From Sulfuricurvum kujiense DSM 16994 (GTDB lineage Bacteria; Campylobacterota; Campylobacteria; Campylobacterales; Sulfurimonadaceae): a stretch of DNA of 64,000 bases. The DNA is taken from assembly GCF_000183725.1 (NCBI RefSeq), contig NC_014762.1:620001-684000 (forward strand), read 5' to 3'. Below are positions 1 through 15,719 of this stretch, piece after piece. The translations under genes were made by a program, and so were the position numbers. How positions within the stretch are numbered: position 1 is the stretch's first letter; each line of letters starts with the position of its first letter. The notes beneath the pieces were generated by a model. It was not told the DNA's origin. It ran no database searches and saw nothing but the letters and a program-made list of their open reading frames with translations.

Positions 1-1
1 A

Positions 2-526
2 AAAGATGAAGCGCTATACGATAAGTTGCTCGGATGGACTGTTCTTCTGGCTGTTCCGGTAACGTTGTATACGGCGGGTCTTATGGCGCAATCAACAGCG
101 CGTGAATTGTGGCAGATGCCGACCGAATCGGCGCAAATGATTTTGGCCGCTTTGTTGGCCGGAACTTCGGCAATGATCCTTTTGGGCGGAAACAAATTTT
201 CGGATACGATTAAAAAAGATCTTGCGATTATTTTGGGGCTTGCGGCAGCAGCGGCATTTATCCTCTATATGGCGGAACTTATTTTCGGCCCGATGAAAGC
301 CGAAGAAGTTGCTGCGGTCTTGCATTATATTAAAGGCGGCGAGTACACAGTCATGTTCTGGATCGGTCAGGCTATGGCATTTATTGTACCGATGATCCTT
401 GTATGCTTGAGTCTTAAAAACCAATCGTATTATTTGTTAAAAATCGCAGCCGTATCGGCATTAGTCGGTTTGTGGGTGAGCAAACACGTTTGGCTCGTTA
501 TCCCCCAATTGTTACCAATGAGCTAA
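2..526 (+). CDS. NrfD/PsrC-type membrane subunit of a molybdoenzyme, 3' part only
   Basis: The reading frame is open to the left edge, so only the last 174 residues are present and the start lies outside the window. The visible part consists of about five hydrophobic helices separated by short loops, such as the stretch around MILAALLAGTSAMILLGG and the C-terminal segment before the stop. NrfD/PsrC proteins are integral membrane subunits that exchange electrons between the quinone pool and a periplasmic Fe-S/molybdenum enzyme. The next gene starts 12 bases downstream and encodes the Mo subunit, so this is inferred to be its membrane anchor. A psrB-like ferredoxin gene would be expected just outside the window. 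The family call rests on hydrophobicity and context; the substrate cannot be told from this fragment. Confidence 0.75.
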   Translation, partial: KDEALYDKLLGWTVLLAVPVTLYTAGLMAQSTARELWQMPTESAQMILAALLAGTSAMILLGGNKFSDTIKKDLAIILGLAAAAAFILYMAELIFGPMKAEEVAAVLHYIKGGEYTVMFWIGQAMAFIVPMILVCLSLKNQSYYLLKIAAVSALVGLWVSKHVWLVIPQLLPMS

Positions 527-538
527 AGAGGATTAATT

Positions 539-3500
539 ATGATGTATTTAGAAAGCAGAAGAACATTTTTAAAAGGCACCGCACTTACCGTAGCGGGTGC
601 CGCAATTGCTAAAGGTGTATTTACGACCGATGCTGCTGCAGAATCGGTAAAAGCGAGTAAATTCACCAACACCCCTGATACTTTGTCCTTCTATCCACCG
701 TTGGATCAATGGGGACAATTTCAGGAACTTGACGGAGTAGATTGGAAACGGGGCGGTATCGATCGTCACGGTGTACAAAGTGAAAATAATCCGGATGGTA
801 TCTATGTTAATGACTATATGATCGTTCCGACGGCGTGTTCGAACTGTGAAGCGTCATGTGGGTTGACCGCTTGGATTGACAAAAAAACGTTTACGGTTAA
901 AAAATACATGGGTAACCCGCTTCATCCGGGTTCACGCGGGCGTAACTGTGCGAAAGGGTATGCGGTTCAATCGCAAATGTACGATCCGGATCGTATTCCG
1001 TTCCCGTTGAAACGTGCCCCTGGTTCTAAACGCGGTGAAGGAAAATGGATCCGGACCACGTGGGATGAAGCGATGGGGACTATCGGTAAAAAAATGGCCG
1101 ATACGATCCGTAAAGGGGATCTCCTTTCGAAAAAATCGGTTATGTATCATGTCGGACGTCCGAATGAAAACGGTTTCGTGCCTCAAATTTGGGAAACATT
1201 GGGGCTTGACTCCTATAACTCTCATACTAACATCTGTTCCTCAAACGGACGTACTCCTACGATTTGGACAGCGAATGATGACCGTACGAGTCCGGACTGG
1301 GCGAATGCGAAACTCATTTTCTTGAACTCTTCGCATGCCGCCGATGCAGGGCACTATTTTGCCCAATCGGCAGCGTTTATCGCTGATGCCCGTAAAAAAG
1401 GGGCAAAGATGGTCGTAATGGATCCTCGTATGTCAAACTCGGCAGGGATGTCCGATCTTTGGATCGCAGCATGGCCGGGAACGGAAACGGCGATTTATCT
1501 TTACTTAGCCAACCGTATTTTGAATGAAAATATGGTAGACAAAAAATTCGTAAAAAAATGGTTCAACTGGGAAACGTTGATGAACGATTCAGAACATCTG
1601 AATTTTATGGTAGAAAAAGGGCAAATTTCCAAACTCCCAGCAGGACGTGACTTTGAGAGCTATCTTGAGCTGCTAAAAGATATGTATTCTCCGTATACAT
1701 TGGAATATGCGGTCAAAGAGACTCATGTTCCGGCGTATAAACTTGAAAAACTTTATGAGATGTTTATTTGGGCTGGAGACGCTATTTCTACCTATATCTG
1801 GCGTGCAACGGCTGCGGGTAACCGCGGTGGATGGATGAGCGGTCGTGCGGCCTATTTTGCGATCGGTCTTCGCGGTGCGATCGGGACTGAAGGGGGAACT
1901 TTCTTCCACCACTGGCACGTTATATCCGTCTCCGGTAAAGGTGGGAGTGCAACCGTAGGTCAAGGGGTTTCGGGTGCCGATGTACCGAAGGTACAAGCAT
2001 GGAATGAGCTTACTTGGCCGCCGGAATGGCCGTTATCGACCTATGAACTTTCTTATCTTCTTCCACATCTCCTGACGGATAAGGCATGGCAGAAAAAATG
2101 GAATGATCGCGGATTGACGGTTCCAAGTAAATTGGCAGTCTATATTCCTCGTATGTATAACCCTGTTTGGATCAATCCGGACGGCTTCCGCTGGATAGAA
2201 GTGTTGAAAAATGAAGAGATTATGGAACTTACGATGAACCTCTCACCGGTATGGTCAGAGACCAACTGGTACATGGACTATGTTCTCCCTGTCGGGCTTG
2301 CGGGTGAGCGCCATGACCAACACTCGGAAGCAACTTTCCCGGCTCGTTGGACAACATTTCGTCAGCCGGTATTGCGTGTAGCGTTGGAAAAATCGGGCTG
2401 GAAAGCTAAAAATCCTGCACGTGCAACTCTCGAAGCGCACATCAAAGCGGGTCTGGGGGAAGTATGGGAAGAGAATGAATTCTGGTTCCAGCTTTGTACC
2501 GATTTCATTGATCCGGACGGATCTCTCGGAATCAAAAAAATGTGGGAGTCCAAACGTCATCCGGGTAAAACGGTTACTATTTCTGAATGGTACGATGCGG
2601 CGTTCGGAGACAATTTGCCGAAACTCAAAGAGACGGCAACGAATGATCCTCGCTATATGAATGAAGAGTTCCCAGTTTATTCGTATCTACGTGATCACGG
2701 GGTATGGATGGAAGAGGATAAAATCTACCATGCAATGGAACGCGAACTAAAAATGGAAGAGGGCGAAGTTATTTCACATGGTCATAAATTTGCCGCTTCC
2801 ACGATGAGTGTCGGTGCGGGCGGTATTATCTCTGCACAAGATCACAACGGTAAAGAGAAAAAAATCGGTGTTGAAATCGACGGTAAAAAAATGGAAGGGT
2901 TTGCAACACTTTCTAAAAAGTTAGAGTTCTATACTCAGTGGGCAACCGATTGGAAGTGGAGAGAGTACGCAATGCCGTTCTATCCGCGTAACGACAAAGA
3001 AAAAGGGGAGATGGTCCACATCGTTTCGCATGTCAATCATATGTATATGAAAGAGGAGAACTCATTTGCTCTGAATACCGTTTTCCGTTTGCCGTATAAC
3101 ATTCACACACGTTCAGCAAACTCGAAACACCTTATGGAGATCAGCCAAAACCATGACCCGATCTGGATTTCGACAAAAGATGCACAGCGTCTCGGATTCA
3201 AACGCGGTGATGCTATTCGTGTCAAAATTGTCGATACGGTTTCTGGATTAGAGAGCGGTCATTTTGTCGCTATGGCGGTTCCGACAGAGGGTGTTCTTCC
3301 GGGGACACTCGCGTGTTCTCACCATGGCGGACGCTGGAAACTGACCAATGCCGTTACGATTCCAAACGGTGTAAGTGACGGCAAAGTGGCACCGGGTGCT
3401 GCTCCGCGTGATTTAGGGAATAAAGAGTTCTTAGCTGAATCTCCGGCAAATGTCGGAAAAGCGGACGGACAAAGCATTATTGACGATTATGAAGGTACTA

Positions 3501-3931
3501 CGGGGCTAAACAGCTTTGGAGTTCCGGTTGCCGAAGTACAAATGGACGGCAAAGTAGGAAAACTCAAATACGTTGAGGGGATCAAACCGTTCCATACGGA
3601 GCGTTTCGGTGAATACAACCGTGATTCTGGTAATGTGTGGTGGGACGGTTTGAGCGGTTCATGGCAAAATGCCGTTGCCGCTCCGCATCCGGATCCGGTT
3701 TCGGGGATGCACTGCTGGCATCACAAAGTTCTTCTTGAACCGGCGCAAGCGGGAGACAAAATCGGAGATATTTTCGTAAACTACGATAATAACTTTAAAG
3801 TCTATCAAGCATGGAGAGATACATTAAGTCGCGGATTGGATGCTAATTCAACCCTCCGCCGTCCTCGCCATATAAAACGTCCGTGGGTCAACCTCGACCC
3901 GTCGGTCTACGATGTCAGTATCAAGTCGTAA
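539..3931 (+). CDS. Tat-exported molybdopterin oxidoreductase, catalytic subunit
   Basis: The 1130-residue protein begins with a twin-arginine signal (SRRTFLKG near residue 6) followed by a hydrophobic stretch, so it should be exported folded. Cys100, Cys103, Cys107 and Cys137 form the CxxC-x3-C-x(n)-C site for the N-terminal [4Fe-4S] cluster of the DMSO-reductase superfamily. Cys233, in the context TNICSSNG, is a candidate Mo ligand, as in PsrA/PhsA-type enzymes (inferred by position). A molydopterin-dinucleotide-binding region occupies the C-terminal third. The gene order membrane subunit, Mo subunit, TorD-like chaperone resembles psr/ttr/soe-type operons. Known relatives act on polysulfide, thiosulfate, tetrathionate, sulfite or arsenic compounds, and I cannot choose between them. 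An AAGAGG ribosome site precedes ATGATG; the second Met is an equally possible start. The protein is longer than typical PsrA. Confidence 0.85.
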   Translation: MMYLESRRTFLKGTALTVAGAAIAKGVFTTDAAAESVKASKFTNTPDTLSFYPPLDQWGQFQELDGVDWKRGGIDRHGVQSENNPDGIYVNDYMIVPTACSNCEASCGLTAWIDKKTFTVKKYMGNPLHPGSRGRNCAKGYAVQSQMYDPDRIPFPLKRAPGSKRGEGKWIRTTWDEAMGTIGKKMADTIRKGDLLSKKSVMYHVGRPNENGFVPQIWETLGLDSYNSHTNICSSNGRTPTIWTANDDRTSPDWANAKLIFLNSSHAADAGHYFAQSAAFIADARKKGAKMVVMDPRMSNSAGMSDLWIAAWPGTETAIYLYLANRILNENMVDKKFVKKWFNWETLMNDSEHLNFMVEKGQISKLPAGRDFESYLELLKDMYSPYTLEYAVKETHVPAYKLEKLYEMFIWAGDAISTYIWRATAAGNRGGWMSGRAAYFAIGLRGAIGTEGGTFFHHWHVISVSGKGGSATVGQGVSGADVPKVQAWNELTWPPEWPLSTYELSYLLPHLLTDKAWQKKWNDRGLTVPSKLAVYIPRMYNPVWINPDGFRWIEVLKNEEIMELTMNLSPVWSETNWYMDYVLPVGLAGERHDQHSEATFPARWTTFRQPVLRVALEKSGWKAKNPARATLEAHIKAGLGEVWEENEFWFQLCTDFIDPDGSLGIKKMWESKRHPGKTVTISEWYDAAFGDNLPKLKETATNDPRYMNEEFPVYSYLRDHGVWMEEDKIYHAMERELKMEEGEVISHGHKFAASTMSVGAGGIISAQDHNGKEKKIGVEIDGKKMEGFATLSKKLEFYTQWATDWKWREYAMPFYPRNDKEKGEMVHIVSHVNHMYMKEENSFALNTVFRLPYNIHTRSANSKHLMEISQNHDPIWISTKDAQRLGFKRGDAIRVKIVDTVSGLESGHFVAMAVPTEGVLPGTLACSHHGGRWKLTNAVTIPNGVSDGKVAPGAAPRDLGNKEFLAESPANVGKADGQSIIDDYEGTTGLNSFGVPVAEVQMDGKVGKLKYVEGIKPFHTERFGEYNRDSGNVWWDGLSGSWQNAVAAPHPDPVSGMHCWHHKVLLEPAQAGDKIGDIFVNYDNNFKVYQAWRDTLSRGLDANSTLRRPRHIKRPWVNLDPSVYDVSIKS

Positions 3932-4020: not shown

Positions 4021-4638
4021 ATGGATGAAATTATCGCACGCAGTAATTTATATGCGTTGTTATCACGAATATTACTCCAAGAGTTGGATGTTGAGCGTTT
4101 AGAAATTCTACGCAATGACGAAACAGTTTTAGAATTTATGCCTCATTGGCGTGATTGGGAACCTCGTAAAACTATCGAAGCACAACAACTTTTGGAAGAA
4201 TATTTAAATCCAGATTTTACCAACCTGTCATTACTCCATCTGGTACCGTACGAGACATTTTATACCCGGCCTGACCAAATGATCGAAACGGGAGGAGCAA
4301 ACCCCGTAACCGATATCTATAGTGCGTATGATTTTCTTGTTGATTATGAAGTGGCACGTGTCGTCTCTTCGGATCATATCGGTATCGAGATGGAATTTAT
4401 GCACCATTTGTGCGAAGCACAGCTCAAAGCATTCGAAGAATCGGATCATGATGCGGTACAAGAGCTGATTAATGTGCAGCATAATTTTTTAAATTCCCAT
4501 TTATTAAAATGGGCGCCGATGTATCTGATCAACATGAAATATGAGTCACGTACGCCACTTTATTACGATACGGCAGAGATGGCATTGGAATTTATCCTTT
4601 CGGATAACGAAACATTGAGTGCTTTGGTAGTGGCGTGA
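4021..4638 (+). CDS. TorD/DmsD-like redox enzyme maturation chaperone
   Basis: This 205-residue, mainly helical protein has the signatures of the TorD family: an N-terminal RSNLYALLSRILL segment, LVPYETFY in the middle, a DHIGIEMEFMHHL segment, and a C-terminal HLLKWAP. Family members bind the Tat signal of their partner molybdoenzyme in the cytoplasm and hold it until the cofactor is inserted. The gene lies 89 bases after the Mo subunit, which is therefore the likely client. A possible promoter -10 (TACAAT, near 3987) lies in the gap. Its stop overlaps the GTG start of the next gene (GTGA), indicating translational coupling. Confidence 0.85.
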   Translation: MDEIIARSNLYALLSRILLQELDVERLEILRNDETVLEFMPHWRDWEPRKTIEAQQLLEEYLNPDFTNLSLLHLVPYETFYTRPDQMIETGGANPVTDIYSAYDFLVDYEVARVVSSDHIGIEMEFMHHLCEAQLKAFEESDHDAVQELINVQHNFLNSHLLKWAPMYLINMKYESRTPLYYDTAEMALEFILSDNETLSALVVA

Positions 4639-5732
4639 GTCTTTTAGAACTTGCACCCGCACGATGCGTCCGCGCTTTGAGTATCAATTCGATCTGTTCT
4701 CATTGTGCTGATGTTTGCCCTACGAATGCTATCAACCTCTCTGCTCGTCTCCCCTCGATTAATCAATCACTTTGTGTCGGATGTGCGGGGTGTGTGGCGG
4801 TCTGTCCGAGTGAAGCGCTGGGATTGGATGATTTTAATCCGACGGAGTTTTTCTTTAGTATGGCTTCGGATGCGGAAAATGTGGTTTCGTGCCAAAAAAA
4901 TCTCCCCTGTATTGCCGCTCTTTCAGTCGAGCATTTAATCTCGTTGTGCAGTCTTAAAAAAGGATTGGTTCTGGATACCGGGCATTGCAACAGCTGCGAG
5001 ATCGGGGATAAAGTGCTTGAGATGATGGAGGGGAGAATTCAGAGTACGAACTATCTCCTTGAAGCGATAGAGATTGATGAGAGAGTTGTGTGCGAGAAAA
5101 TTGCCTACAGCAGCGGTGAGACGAATGAACCCAAAGAGAGGAGAGATTTTTTTAAAACCTTTCATCTGAGGGGGATCGCAAAAGTCAAACATGATTTTGA
5201 AAAAGAGGTACAAAGTACGACCGACGAGTTTATCGAAGCACATATTGACAGCTCCCATACCCAAGAGCTTAGGACGAAAAAAATCACCGACCGCCGTAAA
5301 CTCTTTTTTACCGCATTGAAAAGGGTAGAAAAACCGTCCCGATTTCATGTCGTTGATAGTTCTATGATCGATTTTACTTCGCAGAAAATCATGGATGAAG
5401 CTAAATGTACCGCTTGTCAGATGTGTTATCGCGTGTGCCCCACCGCGGCGCTCACTTCCGACATGCGGAATTCTAAAATCGATTTTGATCCGTTTTTATG
5501 TGTCAAATGCCACTTGTGCCATGACGTATGCGAAAGTGATGCGATTAGTGTTTCAACCTCGTATAATCTCACGGAATGGTTTGAACCTAAAGTGCAGAAT
5601 CTTATCACTTATACCGTGCGTCGATGCGATGAGTGTGACGGATTGTTCAGTTCGGTGGGGGGCGAGAAAATCTGTCATCGCTGTCAGCTTGAAGAAGAGG
5701 AAGCGTTGGAATTATGGGGATTAAATAAATGA
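4635..5732 (+). CDS. polyferredoxin with four [4Fe-4S]-type motifs and a C-terminal zinc ribbon
   Basis: The 365-residue cytoplasmic protein starts at GTG overlapping the torD-like stop. Four ferredoxin motifs are visible. Cys21/24/28 (with Cys11 a possible fourth ligand) and Cys47/50/53/57 form the first pair, and a second pair lies around CTACQMCYRVCP and CVKCHLCHDVC in the C-terminal half. Between them lies a Cys-rich region (Cys86, 92, 105, 118, 121) that is not a standard ferredoxin. The last 35 residues form a CxxC-x12-CxxC knuckle (Cys331, 334, 347, 350), probably a zinc ribbon. No signal peptide or membrane span is seen, so it is not the periplasmic electron-transfer subunit. A role in maturation of, or cytoplasmic electron supply to, the molybdoenzyme is inferred from position only. 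Confidence 0.75.
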   Translation: MSLLELAPARCVRALSINSICSHCADVCPTNAINLSARLPSINQSLCVGCAGCVAVCPSEALGLDDFNPTEFFFSMASDAENVVSCQKNLPCIAALSVEHLISLCSLKKGLVLDTGHCNSCEIGDKVLEMMEGRIQSTNYLLEAIEIDERVVCEKIAYSSGETNEPKERRDFFKTFHLRGIAKVKHDFEKEVQSTTDEFIEAHIDSSHTQELRTKKITDRRKLFFTALKRVEKPSRFHVVDSSMIDFTSQKIMDEAKCTACQMCYRVCPTAALTSDMRNSKIDFDPFLCVKCHLCHDVCESDAISVSTSYNLTEWFEPKVQNLITYTVRRCDECDGLFSSVGGEKICHRCQLEEEEALELWGLNK

Positions 5733-6187
5733 TGAATAATGATAATACCATTACGGTGGCTACTAAACTTTATGGCTATATTGCTGAAAATGCCCATAGT
5801 AGCCGATTTTCGTCGGCAGTCAATCAATTGTTTAAAGATTCCGGAACCAATGCGATGGTCATTCCGATGAATATTCGGCCGGACGACATCGTATTTACAT
5901 TATCGCAAATGCGCCATTCAAAACTTAGCGGTGCAATAGTCGCAACGGAGTATCAAGAAGAAGCGGCCGGATTGGTTGATACTGTTTCAGACAGTGCGGA
6001 AGAACAGGGGATAGTTGATTTGATTTTGATAGAGAATAATCAACTTTCAGGTGATTTGATCATGCCGAAGGCATTGGAGAAATATGCCGAAAATGAGAAT
6101 TTTAAAGACGATATTGCACTGCGCAGTTTATGTCACTATTTTTATGATTTAACTACAGGAGAAAAAGATGAAAGCAAACGATTTTAG
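5729..6187 (+). CDS. stand-alone shikimate-dehydrogenase (AroE) N-domain-like protein, catalytic residues lost
   Basis: The ATG overlaps the previous stop (ATGA). Residues 12-112 follow the AroE substrate-binding domain closely: LYGYIAENAHSS matches the G-x-I-G-x-P-x-x-HS opening, SAVNQLF matches the helix after it, and GAIVATEYQ sits at the NVTxPxK position. GIVDLILIENNQLSGD matches the GAVNT-x8-G-x-NTD segment. The residues that bind and protonate shikimate are replaced: the catalytic Lys is Gln76, the Asn of NVT is Ile70, and the Asp of NTD is Met112. The NADP-binding Rossmann half is absent, and the protein is only 152 residues against about 270 for AroE. It is therefore read as a non-catalytic relative. 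The homology is my own reading of motifs, not a search result. Its role in the operon is unknown. Confidence 0.6.
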   Translation: MMNNDNTITVATKLYGYIAENAHSSRFSSAVNQLFKDSGTNAMVIPMNIRPDDIVFTLSQMRHSKLSGAIVATEYQEEAAGLVDTVSDSAEEQGIVDLILIENNQLSGDLIMPKALEKYAENENFKDDIALRSLCHYFYDLTTGEKDESKRF

Positions 6188-6662
6188 CGATCTAAAGGCC
6201 GAATTTGATGCATTTGTACGGGAAAAATGCGATACCGGAAGCTGTGAGAGCGAAGGTAATGAAAATGATCCGGACAATGAGCCGGTACCGAGTTTCGTCG
6301 ATGAATTGACCGACAAACTTTTGGCTCCGTATCACTGCGGAGCCTATTTCTCGCGTCTGGACATCAAGCGTGTAGCCGAAGCGATCGATGAATCGATTCC
6401 GATCAAAGAACGTAAAAAAATGATCAAAGCCCTTTTCCGTCACACAACATCGAAGGAATATTTGCGTAAAGCTTTTGATGAGTTTAACCGTCACTTTGGC
6501 GGACGTATTTTGATCTATCAGGAACTCTCAGAAGCATTTCCCGCTTCTAAAGAAATATTTGATGATAATATCGCTAAAATCAAAAAAACACAAAAGATAT
6601 TAGATCAAATTGTTGAAGACTTTGAAGAGATAGAGTCGACTTTTGATCCGATGATGATTTAA
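6168..6662 (+). CDS. small acidic, helical protein of unknown function
   Basis: The 164-residue protein overlaps the end of the AroE-like gene by 20 bases and has a GGAGAAAAAG ribosome site inside that gene, so the two are probably co-translated. It is acidic and predicted mainly helical, with a possible coiled coil near the C-terminus (IAKIKKTQKILDQIVEDFEE). Two close cysteines (KCDTGSC) lie near residue 23. No signal peptide, membrane span or recognisable domain is seen. As the last gene of the molybdoenzyme operon it may be an accessory protein, but this is inference. Confidence 0.7.
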   Translation: MKANDFSDLKAEFDAFVREKCDTGSCESEGNENDPDNEPVPSFVDELTDKLLAPYHCGAYFSRLDIKRVAEAIDESIPIKERKKMIKALFRHTTSKEYLRKAFDEFNRHFGGRILIYQELSEAFPASKEIFDDNIAKIKKTQKILDQIVEDFEEIESTFDPMMI

Positions 6663-6685: not shown

Positions 6686-8494
6686 TTGAGTTTTAAACGC
6701 CGTATACAGCTCTTTGTTACCTTTCTTATTCTTTTAGTCTCATCGATTTTAACGGTGTCGTTTCTGTATCATGAAGATAAAATAGCGACTGAAAAAGCAC
6801 TCACCTCTTCTCAAAATATCAAAACGATTTACGATTCCATTCGCAAAGATTTAGAAGATTTTTACACACATCGTGCGTATGCAAATCTTCGTTCATACGG
6901 GATTAAAGAGGCTATGATGGCCCGCGATACGGAAAAACTGTATGCATTAACCTTTCCTCGATATACAACCCTTCGTGAAGAAAATCCTAACCTTATGATT
7001 ATGCAGTTTCATGCGCCCGATGGACACTCAATCCTCCGTATGCATCGAAAAGAGGTTTTCGGAGACGATATCGGCGCACGGCGCCCGATGGTTCATTTGA
7101 CACACGATACGCAAACCGTGCATACAGGGTTTGAAGGGGGGATTGAGGGAATCGCCTATCGTATTATCGTCCCTTTTGTCGAGAATAAACAGTATATCGG
7201 AGCCGTCGAATTCGGCGTTGATCCTGATTTTATTATCAATAAGCTTGTCCAGATAACCAAAATGGATACGCTGTTTATGCTGCATGAGAGCCGTATGGCT
7301 GCGGCCGATTCTCAAAAGTATCAGGCAGGGTACAGCGGATACCGCTTTGCCCATTTAAATCCGCTGCAACGCCCTTTGATTGAAGCATTTGTCAAAGATA
7401 ATCCCGCATTAAATCAACGTATTATCCATCATAACGGAAAAGATTATGATGTCATTCCGATTTATTTAGTCGGTAATGAAGGGAAACCGATCGGCCTCTT
7501 TTTATCGTTTAACGATGTGACGATGGGCTATCAAGAAAAATTGCAGATTATTATCCAAAGTATAGTGGTTACATTCATTATCATCATAATGCTTTTAGGC
7601 ATTATTGAATACGCGTTTGCCCGATTGACCAAAAAAATCAGCTATCAAGATAAATACATATCAACTATTTTGAATTCTCAAAAGAATATTATCATCGTTA
7701 TTGATGACGGAGAGATCGTATATGTCAATACTGCATTTTTTAACTATCTTCACTATCGCACTTTAGAGGAGTTTACGCAAAAACACCGTTGTATCTGTGA
7801 ATTGTTTGAAACGACGGATAGTGAAAACTATCTGCAGCCGAAGATGGATGGAAAGACATGGAGCGAATATATTCTAGCCCATAAAGAGATTGAGCACAAA
7901 GCAAAAATTACCCGAAACGGCAAAACATCGATATTTACAGTGGATGTACAAAAAATAGAGTATGAAAATGTATTCCGACAAGTTGTGGTATTAAGCGATA
8001 TTACAAATCTGAACAATTTGGCAACGGTTGATATGCTTACTCAGGTGACCAATAGGTTTGAGTTCGATAAGATGCTCGGACATTCGATTTCGGTATCTAA
8101 GCGCTATGGAAGAACGCTTTCGGTGCTGTTAGTCGATATTGACCATTTCAAATTGATCAATGATAATTTCGGTCATTTGGTAGGAGATGAAGTGCTTAAA
8201 TCGTTCAGCAGTCTGTTGCGCCAACAGATTCGACAAAGTGATATAGTCGCTCGGTGGGGAGGGGAGGAGTTTATTATCCTTCTTCCGGATACCGCCCTCT
8301 CTTCTGCCATTATAATGGCTGAAGCACTGCGTCAGAGAATTGAAGTGAACCCGTTTGAAGCAGTCGGGAATATTACCTGTTCTATCGGTGTGGCCGAATT
8401 TAATAGTGTTGAAGAAGCGGACGATTTATTGCAAAGAGCCGATGAAAACCTTTACCGTGCCAAACATAGCGGACGTAATCGTGTCGTTGCTTAA
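6686..8494 (+). CDS. membrane diguanylate cyclase, Cache-PAS-GGDEF
   Basis: The 602-residue protein starts at TTG with an AAGGG site upstream. An N-terminal membrane helix (about 9-28) leads into a periplasmic Cache-type sensor, including the segment LMIMQFHAPDGHSILRMH. A second membrane helix (about 290-310) is followed by a PAS domain (about 325-440) and a GGDEF domain. The active site is GGEEF at 525-529, and the inhibitory site RQSD at 516-519 is intact, so it should make cyclic-di-GMP under product inhibition. The sensed ligand is unknown. It lies just after the molybdoenzyme operon and 81 bases before a paralog of identical length. Confidence 0.9.
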   Translation: MSFKRRIQLFVTFLILLVSSILTVSFLYHEDKIATEKALTSSQNIKTIYDSIRKDLEDFYTHRAYANLRSYGIKEAMMARDTEKLYALTFPRYTTLREENPNLMIMQFHAPDGHSILRMHRKEVFGDDIGARRPMVHLTHDTQTVHTGFEGGIEGIAYRIIVPFVENKQYIGAVEFGVDPDFIINKLVQITKMDTLFMLHESRMAAADSQKYQAGYSGYRFAHLNPLQRPLIEAFVKDNPALNQRIIHHNGKDYDVIPIYLVGNEGKPIGLFLSFNDVTMGYQEKLQIIIQSIVVTFIIIIMLLGIIEYAFARLTKKISYQDKYISTILNSQKNIIIVIDDGEIVYVNTAFFNYLHYRTLEEFTQKHRCICELFETTDSENYLQPKMDGKTWSEYILAHKEIEHKAKITRNGKTSIFTVDVQKIEYENVFRQVVVLSDITNLNNLATVDMLTQVTNRFEFDKMLGHSISVSKRYGRTLSVLLVDIDHFKLINDNFGHLVGDEVLKSFSSLLRQQIRQSDIVARWGGEEFIILLPDTALSSAIIMAEALRQRIEVNPFEAVGNITCSIGVAEFNSVEEADDLLQRADENLYRAKHSGRNRVVA

Positions 8495-8575
8495 CATTAC
8501 TTGCTTAATAGTATTATGCAATAGATACATTTGATAAAAATATAGATAGAATAAGAAAAACATCATAGAAGTTAC

Positions 8576-10384
8576 ATGAATTTAAAATTACGTGCTCAGT
8601 TGATAATCGCATTCATTGTTATCGTAACTTCAGCGGCGTTAACCTTCTACCATATTTCGCAGGAAAGACGTTATATCAAAGAACGAACCGAACGTTCGTC
8701 TGAGAATATCAAATTGGCTTTTGATACTATTGTCGCAGATACCGAACAGCTCTACCGTTTTCGGACACGTGTGACCATGGAGACAGAAGGTGTCATGGAC
8801 GCGATGAAGAGACGTGACAGCGATGCACTGTATCGCGCCGTTCTCCCCCGTTACAATGCTTTGCACGAAGAGAATCATCATCTTATAATCATGCAATTTC
8901 ATGCTCCGGATGGGCGTTCCATTTTACGCGTCCATCTTAAAGAAAAATTCGGTGACGATATTGCCGCAAAGCGGCCGATGCTTCGTGAAATACACAGCGA
9001 ACATAAAATGGTTACCGGGTTTGAGGGGGGGCTCGGAGGAATCGCATTTCGGGTTATAATGCCTATTTTTGATCACGGGGAGTACATCGGTGCATTGGAA
9101 TACGGTGTAGACAGCGGTTATTTTGTAGATCGAATCAAGCATTTGACCGGATCAGACAGTATGGTTCTGATACATAAGGACTGGTTCGGTGCGGCGGATA
9201 AGAAAAAATATACTGATGGAATCGGTCAATATTATTTCAGCAATGTATTGAACGAACGCAAAGAATTAATCTCCCGTTATGCCTTTAAAAATCCCTCTTT
9301 GGAACCCCGTCATATTGATTTAGAGGGCAACTCTTATGAAATCAACCCCTTATTCTTAAAAGATGCAAAAAATCGAAATTTAGGGATGATCATTGCCATT
9401 GACGATGTGACGGGGGTCAGTCAGAATACAGCAGATACTATCATTGATTCTCTAACGGTCACTGCGATTATGCTGATTGTACTGTGGGGATTAATCGAAT
9501 ACACATTCGGAGGACTGATCAAAAAAGTAAATTTGCAGGAACGGTATATTAAAACGATTCTCGATTCCCAAAAAAATATAGTTGTGGTAACAGACGGCAA
9601 AGCACTCATCTTTGCGAATCAAGCTTTTTATGATTATTTCGGATATCACTCACTGGATAAATTTAGAGATGATCATTCCTGTATCTGCGATTTTTTTGAA
9701 TCGGGTGAATCGGATGAATATTTGCAGCCGAAAATTGACGGCCTGCTGTGGACCGATTATCTGATTCAATACGATATGAAAGAGCAGAAAGTCAAAATGA
9801 CCGTCGGAGAGAAGACCTCCATTTTCACCGTACACGCAAAGCGGATGGAATACGCGGGTGAAATACGCCATGTTGTTGTTTTCACCGATATTACAAAGCT
9901 CAACCAATTGGCGACGCAGGATGTTTTGACCCAAGTCGCCAACCGGTTTCAATTCGATAATGTATTGGAACATTCGATCAGCTTGGCTCAAAGATATGGA
10001 CGTACTTTATCGATTCTTTTGATCGACATTGATTTCTTTAAAGAGGTGAATGATACCTACGGCCATTTGATCGGTGATGACGTATTAAAAAAGTTAGCCC
10101 ACACGTTGAATGAGGGAATTCGTAAAAGCGATGTGATAGCCCGATGGGGAGGGGAAGAGTTTGTAATTTTGCTTCCGGATAGCGAGCTCTCTTCAGCGCT
10201 GAAGCTGGCAGAAACTCTTCGTGCCAAGGTGGCTGAAACCGATTTTGAACCCGTTGTTAAAATCACATGTTCGATCGGTGTTGCGCGGTGGAATGAGGGG
10301 GAGAACAGCGATCAGCTTTTAAAACGTGTCGATGAAAAATTATATACGGCGAAAGAGAACGGAAGAAACAGGGTCGTTAGTTGA
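8576..10384 (+). CDS. membrane diguanylate cyclase, Cache-PAS-GGDEF (tandem paralog)
   Basis: This 602-residue paralog of the preceding gene keeps every domain at the same position: membrane helix, periplasmic Cache sensor with LIIMQFHAPDGRSILRVH, second membrane helix, PAS and GGDEF. GGEEF is at 525-529 and the inhibitory site RKSD at 516-519, so it is predicted to be active. The GGDEF half is more alike between the two copies than the periplasmic sensor half, which suggests duplication followed by change of input signal. It ends 7 bases from the convergent kdpE-like gene. Confidence 0.9.
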   Translation: MNLKLRAQLIIAFIVIVTSAALTFYHISQERRYIKERTERSSENIKLAFDTIVADTEQLYRFRTRVTMETEGVMDAMKRRDSDALYRAVLPRYNALHEENHHLIIMQFHAPDGRSILRVHLKEKFGDDIAAKRPMLREIHSEHKMVTGFEGGLGGIAFRVIMPIFDHGEYIGALEYGVDSGYFVDRIKHLTGSDSMVLIHKDWFGAADKKKYTDGIGQYYFSNVLNERKELISRYAFKNPSLEPRHIDLEGNSYEINPLFLKDAKNRNLGMIIAIDDVTGVSQNTADTIIDSLTVTAIMLIVLWGLIEYTFGGLIKKVNLQERYIKTILDSQKNIVVVTDGKALIFANQAFYDYFGYHSLDKFRDDHSCICDFFESGESDEYLQPKIDGLLWTDYLIQYDMKEQKVKMTVGEKTSIFTVHAKRMEYAGEIRHVVVFTDITKLNQLATQDVLTQVANRFQFDNVLEHSISLAQRYGRTLSILLIDIDFFKEVNDTYGHLIGDDVLKKLAHTLNEGIRKSDVIARWGGEEFVILLPDSELSSALKLAETLRAKVAETDFEPVVKITCSIGVARWNEGENSDQLLKRVDEKLYTAKENGRNRVVS

Positions 10385-14011: not shown

Positions 14012-14518
14012 TTAGCCGATCAATCCGCTTTTGAGAATGATTTGCCATACGAGTGCGGAAGATATCCCGGCGGCAAAACCGGCGATAATATCATCACCCA
14101 TTACCCCGATTCCCCCTTTTGCTTCGCGATCGATCCGACCGATGATCGAGGGCTTTTTAATATCATAAATTCTAAAAAATATAAAGCTCAGAGCGATTTG
14201 TAGGGCGATACCGTTTTCCCAGTGCATCAGCGTCGCCATATCAAATCCGATTCCCGGTGCAATGGAGAGGGCAAACCACATCCCTACCAGCTCGTCGATA
14301 ACGATGCGGCTGTCATCATGCTCATTGGAAGTACTTTCGTGTTTATCGATACTTTTAATCGCGATCAATGTAATCAGAATCGTCGCCAGAAACAGAGTCT
14401 GCGGCCCGAAATAGAGGAGTATCGCGATTCCCAGCGGAAGTGATGCGATGGTCCCCATGGTTCCCGGTGCTTTAGGAAAAAGGCCGCTGTAGCCTACGGT
14501 AAGAAAAAACCAATTCAA
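14012..14518 (-). CDS. pgpA: phosphatidylglycerophosphatase A
   Basis: The 168-residue protein has the PgpA signature GLFPKAPGTMGTIASLPL near the N-terminus and the acidic motif DDSRIVIDELVGM. A second conserved block around GGIGVMGDDIIAGFAAG follows, and there are several membrane helices. PgpA removes the phosphate from phosphatidylglycerophosphate to give phosphatidylglycerol at the inner membrane. It lies 10 bases after sat on the same strand and is probably the last gene of the ispDF-regulator-sat-pgpA transcript. Confidence 0.9.
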   Translation of the reverse strand: MNWFFLTVGYSGLFPKAPGTMGTIASLPLGIAILLYFGPQTLFLATILITLIAIKSIDKHESTSNEHDDSRIVIDELVGMWFALSIAPGIGFDMATLMHWENGIALQIALSFIFFRIYDIKKPSIIGRIDREAKGGIGVMGDDIIAGFAAGISSALVWQIILKSGLIG

Positions 14519-14528
14519 TTTTTGTCCC

Positions 14529-15719
14529 TTACGTTAATGATGTTGTTTGGTATAGGCGCATTAGTGCGACGTAAAAATCTTTTTCCGTATGCTCTTCAAG
14601 CAGGCCGTTAACGGGCATAATGTCATAGTAGAGTTTAGAGAGATTTTTAAATCGGTTGGGATAGAGCGAAGCCACGATCATCGCCGATATCTCTTTGCGT
14701 ACTAAAACGGCCGGAGGGAGGAGCCCCTGACGCATCAGTTCCAAAATGGATTCAGAGTGATATGAGATGTGGTGGTGATGTCCGTGCGGGCAGGTTTGAA
14801 TACTTACGAGTGTTTTACATTGATTGCAGTAGACATATTCGCTGGAAATCCCTACTTCGATATCAATACCGATGAGACGGTCTAAAATCGATTTATTGGC
14901 ATTATGATCGTAATACATCCCGATTCCGGCATGGTTTTGCCCGATCATAAGGCGATCGCATCCGTAGTTTTTAGCCACAATCGCATCGAGGATAACTTCG
15001 TTGCTTCCGGCAAATATGTAACTGCTCTCTAACGGTACGATAACGACGCGGTTATGCGGAAGATAGTTATCGATGAAAAATTTTAATGTCTCATAACGCA
15101 ATTCGTATTTCAAATCGGCATTATTGTAGGGTTTGAGGAGAAAAATAACGATGAGATCGGTGCGTTCCAAACTTTGGCGGATGAGACGTTCATGGGCACG
15201 GTGAAGCGGATTGGCAGCCATAAACAATGCGGTCGTGTGCTGCGCACCGATTTGCTCTTTTGCCTGTGCGAGCATTTCCTGAATCGATTGAACGGAGGTA
15301 AGATCGATAGAATAGTCGCCGCAGATAGCGTATTTTCCTAATCGTTTATGGGTAGCACTGACGCCGGGGTGTGAAAGATCTTCGGTGCCGTATATCTGGT
15401 GCAGCCGTTCACGCGGATCGATGGGATATACTTCATCGACGCATAGCTCTCCTACAATGACGTTATCACAGATCAGATCAAGTATCTCACCTTTAACTGC
15501 CGTCGTAAGAATGGTTTCGTTCACTTTTCCGCTGGGGGAGAGAATCAGGGGAAAGGGAAATGTTTTGCCCATAAACATTCCGCTGCTTAAAACCTCTTTG
15601 CTCTGCTTTTCGTTCATGAGCGCCGTTACGGGGCTGAGCATGCCGGATTTGAGTAAGGTGAGGGCTGAAACAGCCTCTTGGTCAATGTAGAGGGCTCTAT
15701 TTTTTCTTGACGATGCCAT
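14529..15719 (-). CDS. sat: ATP sulfurylase (sulfate adenylyltransferase)
   Basis: The 396-residue protein is a Sat-type homomeric ATP sulfurylase. ANPLHRAHERLIR carries the HxxH nucleotide-binding motif, a DYSIDLTSV segment lies before it, and the C-terminal part has a CNQCKTLVSIQTC-PHGHHHH metal-binding region followed by ISAMIV. It interconverts sulfate plus ATP with APS plus pyrophosphate, serving either sulfate assimilation or, in reverse, energy conservation from sulfite via APS. No aprAB or cys genes lie in the window, so the direction cannot be judged. Its start overlaps the 3' end of the regulator gene upstream by 23 bases. Confidence 0.9.
   Translation of the reverse strand: MASSRKNRALYIDQEAVSALTLLKSGMLSPVTALMNEKQSKEVLSSGMFMGKTFPFPLILSPSGKVNETILTTAVKGEILDLICDNVIVGELCVDEVYPIDPRERLHQIYGTEDLSHPGVSATHKRLGKYAICGDYSIDLTSVQSIQEMLAQAKEQIGAQHTTALFMAANPLHRAHERLIRQSLERTDLIVIFLLKPYNNADLKYELRYETLKFFIDNYLPHNRVVIVPLESSYIFAGSNEVILDAIVAKNYGCDRLMIGQNHAGIGMYYDHNANKSILDRLIGIDIEVGISSEYVYCNQCKTLVSIQTCPHGHHHHISYHSESILELMRQGLLPPAVLVRKEISAMIVASLYPNRFKNLSKLYYDIMPVNGLLEEHTEKDFYVALMRLYQTTSLT

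Follow-up and report, generated by a model that had tools for sequence, protein, structure and literature searches.

Gene Organization of the Locus

The window analyzed here is a stretch of 64,000 nucleotides (620001-684000) from the 2.8 Mb genome of Sulfuricurvum kujiense DSM 16994, and it opens within an operon for a molybdopterin oxidoreductase whose genes are all on the forward strand. First among these is an NrfD/PsrC-like membrane anchor of 299 amino acids (1..526, PF03916), the initial 374 nt of which precede the window (full ORF L019:13627-14526); immediately upstream, and thus also before the window, we recognize by eye a ferredoxin-like Fe-S subunit of 211 amino acids (L019:12992-13627). 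There follow the 1130 amino acid catalytic subunit (539..3931; PF00384, PF04879 and PF01568), referred to below as MoA, with the Tat motif SRRTFLKG near its N-terminus, a TorD/NarJ-type chaperone of 205 amino acids (4021..4638; PF02613 at 60 bits against a cut-off of 22) and a 365 amino acid polyferredoxin (4635..5732) in which PF00037 matches four stretches and no signal peptide is apparent by eye. The gene of main interest comes next, at 5729..6187. It encodes a protein of 152 amino acids that is assigned by PF08501, phmmer and hhalign, that lacks an NADP domain and, by eye, a signal peptide, and for whose family we have coined the name AroEN. Downstream of it is unk164 (6168..6662), an unnamed protein of 164 amino acids with no Pfam match above cut-off and no NCBIfam match up to an E value of 1, for which structure prediction gives a low-confidence, mostly helical model (pLDDT 61). 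As the first-pass annotation of this DNA had pointed out, AroEN is tied to its neighbors by overlapping starts and stops: its start overlaps the stop of the polyferredoxin ORF by 4 nt and its stop overlaps the start of unk164 by 20 nt.

In one annotated public copy of the cluster, on a 395-kb plasmid of Sulfurovum mangrovi, the genes at the AroEN and unk164 positions are labelled 'hypothetical protein'. On this plasmid the MoA gene matches in pieces that lie in different frames (L119:7862-11160) and is absent from the CDS entries of the (incomplete) table, among which the accessory genes do appear. In the window, two tandem dCache/PAS/GGDEF-type sensor genes of 602 amino acids each (6686-10384, the first checked against Pfam) lie 3' of the operon. 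A GGDEF gene directly follows unk164 in 8 of 16 loci from a first scan of relatives and in 4 of 37 further loci; being variably present, such genes do not belong to the conserved block. Sulfate-adenylyltransferase-like and PgpA-like genes (14012-15719) are located a few kb away from the operon; several relatives have similar genes beside the cluster, so annotated on the S. mangrovi plasmid and otherwise identified by eye.

No NCBIfam model reaches its cut-off on MoA, the best being PhsA with 133 bits against 694, nor is the identity of the enzyme settled by the passages of the literature that deal with Sulfurovum Psr clusters (PMC10045233), the MOLY cluster (PMC12998232) or mine-water sulfur oxidisers (PMC11294248). 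Outside Campylobacterota MoA matches eight plasmid records, six of them at 35-38% over 91-98% of its length and two only in part (one at 27%). Gene contexts were examined in four of nine plasmid records (Rhodococcus, one Natrinema, Thermomicrobium and Sulfurovum): the Rhodococcus and Natrinema copies adjoin sulfur-handling genes (TusA, DsrE, rhodanese, TauE), and the Thermomicrobium copy is without them. That the substrate of MoA might be a sulfur compound is a guess.

Descent from Shikimate Dehydrogenase

Residues ∼8-108 of AroEN correspond to the substrate-binding domain of shikimate dehydrogenase (AroE), with PF08501 scoring 31 bits against a cut-off of 27 (E 3e-7). In a phmmer search the window protein matches the AroE of PDB entry 2hk9, which we take to be that of Aquifex, also at E 3e-7, in an alignment that is ungapped across residues 6-107. 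Twelve NCBIfam shikimate dehydrogenase models match as well, every one below its cut-off, and none of 10 scanned AroEN relatives reaches the PF08501 gathering score of 27, the best having 26. Comparison of whole families by hhalign gives an E value of 1.3e-7 for the close AroEN family (A1, 17 rows) against 17 of our 25 true AroE sequences (A5), and 1e-13, with 228 columns aligned, for a broad family against true AroE (A4, comprising 51 of 61 AroEN rows and omitting nine near relatives of the window protein together with L087). AlphaFold2 run on the 17 close relatives of A1 returned a model with a pLDDT of 45, too low for a fold search. The substrate-binding domain of AroE that the first-pass annotation had perceived is thus found again in sequence and profile searches, and at the level of sequence these matches show that AroEN and AroE share common descent.

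A separate, normal AroE of 264 amino acids is encoded elsewhere in the genome from which the window derives, and housekeeping AroE was detected in all 61 Campylobacterota genomes searched with this protein. We considered whether AroEN could be a recent copy of its own genome's aroE. BLASTP fails to match the two to any meaningful degree, and AroEN is therefore not such a copy; it matches 2hk9, by comparison, at E 3e-7. Directly 3' of the housekeeping aroE in this genome, and in the same orientation, is a gene that by eye is ModE-like (of the molybdate regulator type; L017:191-967). Among the papers listed in a literature search over open-licence PMC papers there was no relevant account of a shikimate dehydrogenase as a pseudoenzyme.

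Residues Lost and Residues Conserved

In the window protein Gln76 replaces the catalytic Lys, Met112 the Asp of NTD, and Ile70 and Ala72 the Asn and Thr of NxTxPxK, so that the loss of catalytic residues that had been read from the single sequence is confirmed by alignment to AroE. In order to gauge the extent of this loss over the family we aligned 61 AroEN with 25 true AroE sequences and scored ten signature positions (SxS, NxT, P, Lys, Asn and NTD), presumably all with a role in AroE catalysis. Each of the 25 true AroE proteins keeps 10 of 10 signature residues; 59 of the 61 AroEN are left with 0 or 1, and the other two, L057 and L062, with 3 or 4. The catalytic Lys and Asp occur together in 25/25 AroE and in 0/61 AroEN. 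The residue most often left is the first Ser of SxS, found in 27/61 AroEN including that of the window.

Other positions have become fixed, or very nearly so. N48 and S64 are present in 61/61 AroEN, I45 and I49 in 60/61, E74 in 59/61 (Pro there in 25/25 AroE) and Asp97 in 50/61 (Asn there in 25/25 AroE), with N32 common to both families (60/61 AroEN and 24/25 AroE). Among the window protein and its 16 close relatives 50 of 152 columns are invariant. Across 13 Sulfuricurvum-type loci, taking for each gene those of the 78 pairs whose dS was below 2 (15 pairs for AroEN, 14 to 23 over the four genes), the median dN/dS was 0.14 for AroEN and 0.08-0.09 for its three neighbors; AroEN thus evolves somewhat faster than they do. 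As judged from the alignments, these data show a family that has lost the catalytic residues of AroE, conserves a different set of residues and is under purifying selection. Tested for the catalytic residues and the NADP domain, and found to have neither, the protein of the window is not an AroE but is descended from one.

Two-Domain Forms and Loss of the NADP Domain

A Pfam scan finds no NADP domain in the window protein, and in this the first-pass annotation was correct; what it could not see from a single sequence is that there are relatives with two domains and that the absence is secondary. Eighteen of the 61 AroEN are 244-286 amino acids long, with a second part that is the AroE Rossmann domain (six of these were scanned), and the remaining 43 are too short to hold one. 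L054 matches TIGR00507 across residues 13-278 of 285, and the other five scanned proteins match over shorter stretches. Visual inspection of the glycine-rich motif shows little or no change in L051, L052, L054 and L066, an altered motif in L063 and a degraded one in the remaining two-domain forms.

In a polyferredoxin tree of 54 rows, which does not include every locus, the short form of AroEN is scattered, so that five changes are needed, all of them forced by well supported branches. With AroE as the ancestor, most of these changes are in our reading repeated losses, numbering at least four, subject to the position of the root; the genus of the window represents one domain loss, nested among two-domain forms. 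The family did not start out without an NADP domain; some of its lineages have lost it. Because several lineages are without it the domain cannot be essential, and since the Rossmann domain has been lost repeatedly, NADP-dependent chemistry is not what selection keeps.

We also asked whether the tail of the window protein might be the old C-terminal helix of AroE, a proposal that is unsupported: among 12 Sulfuricurvum-type tails only that of L013 exceeds the 95th percentile of shuffled scores, and it does so with two of three profiles. A C-terminus profile built from four two-domain forms of family f11 does match the tails of nine short f4 forms and of L057 (10/10 exceed the 95th percentile of shuffled scores and 4 exceed the shuffled maximum), but none of these ten passes with a profile of AroE alone.

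Distribution and Gene Order

The first scan of relatives produced 16 AroEN loci, in records all titled Sulfuricurvum or Campylobacterales, with the operon order preserved as far as the stretches extend. When 298 Campylobacterota genomes were then searched with a profile, 45 had matches, of which 42 were solid and 3 weak. Judging by frame length and score we took the weak matches in G213 and G261, along with a second weak match in G254, to be true AroE and excluded them, and we retained the weak match in G279, which adjoins unk164. MoA and unk164 are each found in 52 of the 298 genomes. Inspection of the 11 MoA genomes without a solid AroEN match revealed that seven from family f8 (G279 included) have a short, divergent AroEN at the expected place, recognized from its position and from a profile search of the ORFs in 17 fetched stretches (E 2e-5 to 4e-7), and that in G047 the contig ends. 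The three others, G139, G250 and G251, belong to one genus and have the rest of the operon, with 11-15 nt between the polyferredoxin and unk164 genes and no AroEN, so that AroEN is dispensable there. In all, AroEN is present in 49 genomes (42 solid and 7 from f8), 48 of which have MoA, a Tat-signal enzyme of ∼1100 amino acids, and 48 of the 52 MoA genomes have AroEN; in the lone AroEN genome without a MoA match, G199, the contig begins inside the polyferredoxin gene. The survey that had been suggested along with the first-pass annotation, of whether the gene travels with this molybdoenzyme, therefore comes out positive, although the counts here and below include related species and are not independent.

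Gene order was examined at 61 loci (the window, 16 from the first scan, 37 from the profile search and 7 more), which encode 60 distinct proteins as L005 and L071 are the same; four of the 42 solid genomes (G239, G266, G289 and G295) were left out of this count. The polyferredoxin gene is directly 5' of AroEN in 60/61 loci, unk164 is 3' in 59/61, TorD is upstream in 57/61 and MoA lies within the same cluster in 47/61. One or other of polyferredoxin and unk164 adjoins AroEN at all 61 loci, and we thus encountered none of the unrelated contexts that would have spoken against an association with this operon. In 14 loci MoA is not in the cluster: two are at contig ends (L004, L066) and 12 are detached, with MoA elsewhere in the same genomes. 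Nine of these 12 belong to genus g2, in which TorD, polyferredoxin, AroEN and unk164 mostly stand alone (the surroundings of MoA were obtained for two g2 genomes, as L092 and L093). In G037 it is the polyferredoxin-AroEN pair that is isolated, with TorD and unk164 remaining beside MoA, and in G177 AroEN and unk164 occur without polyferredoxin or TorD within the fetched stretch. Separately, in G176, from the genus of the window, a broken second copy of unk164 with two TGA stops lies 3' of the operon (L073:11690-11890). As we read them, the 12 detached loci point to trans-acting accessory genes rather than to subunits of the enzyme. The family is both more constrained and more widespread than could be seen from the window sequence on its own.

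Possible Function of AroEN

We propose, and rate the chances of the proposal as about even, that AroEN is a repurposed, catalytically dead AroE that would serve as a dedicated cytoplasmic accessory (maturation) factor for a single family of Tat-exported, NrfD-anchored molybdoenzymes in Campylobacterota. TorD, polyferredoxin, AroEN and unk164 would form a four-gene maturation module that, by analogy with NapD/NapF and FdhD, works on MoA in the cytoplasm before export; AroEN may partner the polyferredoxin, its tightest neighbor, in Fe-S or cofactor loading, and the old substrate cleft may now be occupied by a new ligand or by part of the client. Among the possibilities raised by the first-pass annotation was molybdoenzyme assembly, which has gained the backing of genomic context, that is, of co-occurrence and gene order. 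We favor maturation because TorD is a maturation chaperone by family, because the accessory genes can be detached from those of the enzyme and because a paralog of unk164 lies by Mrp-type Fe-S carriers, near a second Tat molybdoenzyme.

This paralog occurs in 12 of the 298 genomes, and six of its places (L123-L128) were examined. It is flanked there on one side by an LRV-repeat-type protein and on the other by an Mrp/ApbC-type Fe-S carrier, the Mrp/ApbC-like gene adjoining it in 6/6 cases, and in 5/6 a second Tat molybdoenzyme lies within a few kb, beyond a rhodanese-like gene; in the sixth place, L126, there is no molybdoenzyme ORF in the stretch examined. The neighbors confirmed by Pfam are the molybdoenzymes of L123 and L125, the Mrp-type proteins of L125 and L126, the rhodanese of L124 and the LRV-repeat protein of L127, with the others identified by eye from similar N-termini. 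The one second molybdoenzyme scanned against NCBIfam, that of L125, is of the DMSO reductase type II kind.

Several observations count against a maturation factor. The usual chaperone role is already covered by TorD, three genomes of one genus manage without AroEN, and its dN/dS (0.14) is above that of its neighbors (0.08-0.09). Gene neighborhood, moreover, cannot distinguish between maturation, regulation and electron transfer as the role of AroEN.

Precedents for dedicated cytoplasmic factors of molybdoenzymes are NapD, NapF and FdhD (PMC10609526). NapD and NapF, the maturation factors of nitrate reductase, are cytoplasmic proteins serving one Tat-exported molybdoenzyme, as AroEN would be. 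NapF has four [4Fe-4S] motifs, like the polyferredoxin partner of AroEN, and some operons likewise lack it; the fold of NapD is of the ferredoxin type (PMC10609526), whereas AroEN descends from AroE. FdhD, the sulfurtransferase and cofactor carrier of formate dehydrogenase and also a dedicated factor, has a Rossmann-type fold and nucleotide motif and binds GDP, and binding of Mo-bisPGD in vivo has been reported (PMC10609526); however, no match links FdhD to AroEN, and the Rossmann domain is missing from 43/61 AroEN. Mo-MPT is bound by XdhC (PMC2997495). The window protein has no NapD, FdhD or TorD match in Pfam or NCBIfam up to an E value of 1. The redox enzyme maturation proteins of the TorD/NarJ kind have a helical fold; here TorD is in the same operon as AroEN and probably serves the same purpose, but it is a separate gene with a different fold. 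AroE itself has the homologous N-terminal domain, and two-domain AroEN match beyond it, L054 over nearly the whole length. AroEN differs from AroE in that Lys/Asp, NxT, P and Asn are replaced, SxS mostly so, in an NADP domain that is degraded or absent and in a gene that is bound to an operon, with a separate housekeeping AroE present. As dedicated maturation factors are, it is encoded with and co-occurs with one molybdoenzyme (47/61 loci and 48/49 genomes).

An unlikely alternative is that AroEN and the polyferredoxin make up a soluble, electron-passing redox complex in which AroEN is a scaffold or docking subunit, its link with MoA being metabolic and not one of assembly. The adjacency of these two genes is the tightest at the 61 loci, and in G037 they stand alone as a pair, as such a complex would have it. 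MoA, however, already has a ferredoxin-like Fe-S subunit (by eye) and an NrfD anchor, and TorD and unk164 are mostly in the same cluster (57/61 and 59/61). It is rather less probable that AroEN is a ligand sensor, with a shikimate cleft that binds a small molecule (a cofactor precursor, or a quinone-like or aromatic compound) and gates assembly or expression of the operon. The substrate-binding domain is indeed the part retained when the NADP domain is lost, with a new conserved residue set in place of the old, but Pfam scans of the window protein and relatives show no DNA-binding or signalling domain. We regard as quite improbable an enzyme with new chemistry that would use the conserved Asn, Ser, Glu and Asp and, in the two-domain forms, NAD(P). 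Although the glycine-rich motif is retained in L051, L052, L054 and L066, and an AroE model covers almost all of L054, the motif is degraded by eye in most other two-domain members, 43/61 AroEN are too short for a Rossmann domain and no member has the catalytic Lys and Asp together. Finally, a decaying aroE leftover carried along by the operon, as might be imagined from the loss of catalytic residues, of a whole domain in many members and of the gene itself in three genomes of one genus, is disfavored by the results to the point of being scarcely credible, given the median dN/dS of 0.14, the 50/152 columns invariant in 17 close relatives, the positions fixed across 61 sequences and a place retained in 60/61 loci.

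Implications

For Tat-exported enzymes the loading of cofactors (molybdenum, Fe-S) is understood only in part, and few folds are represented among the helpers known so far. Returning to AroEN as a maturation factor, we suggest tentatively, and with somewhat less than even confidence, that an AroE was recruited as a maturation factor for a molybdoenzyme family in Campylobacterota, giving up its chemistry and, in several lineages, the NADP domain as well, and that its old substrate cleft would now bind part of either the molybdenum cofactor or the client protein. The case adjoins a molybdoenzyme, MoA, that no NCBIfam model names. An enzyme of core metabolism thus appears to have been converted into a molybdoenzyme helper, and intermediates survive, from two-domain forms through a degraded NADP site to loss of the domain, so that what the helper does, and how its repurposing came about, would both be directly testable.
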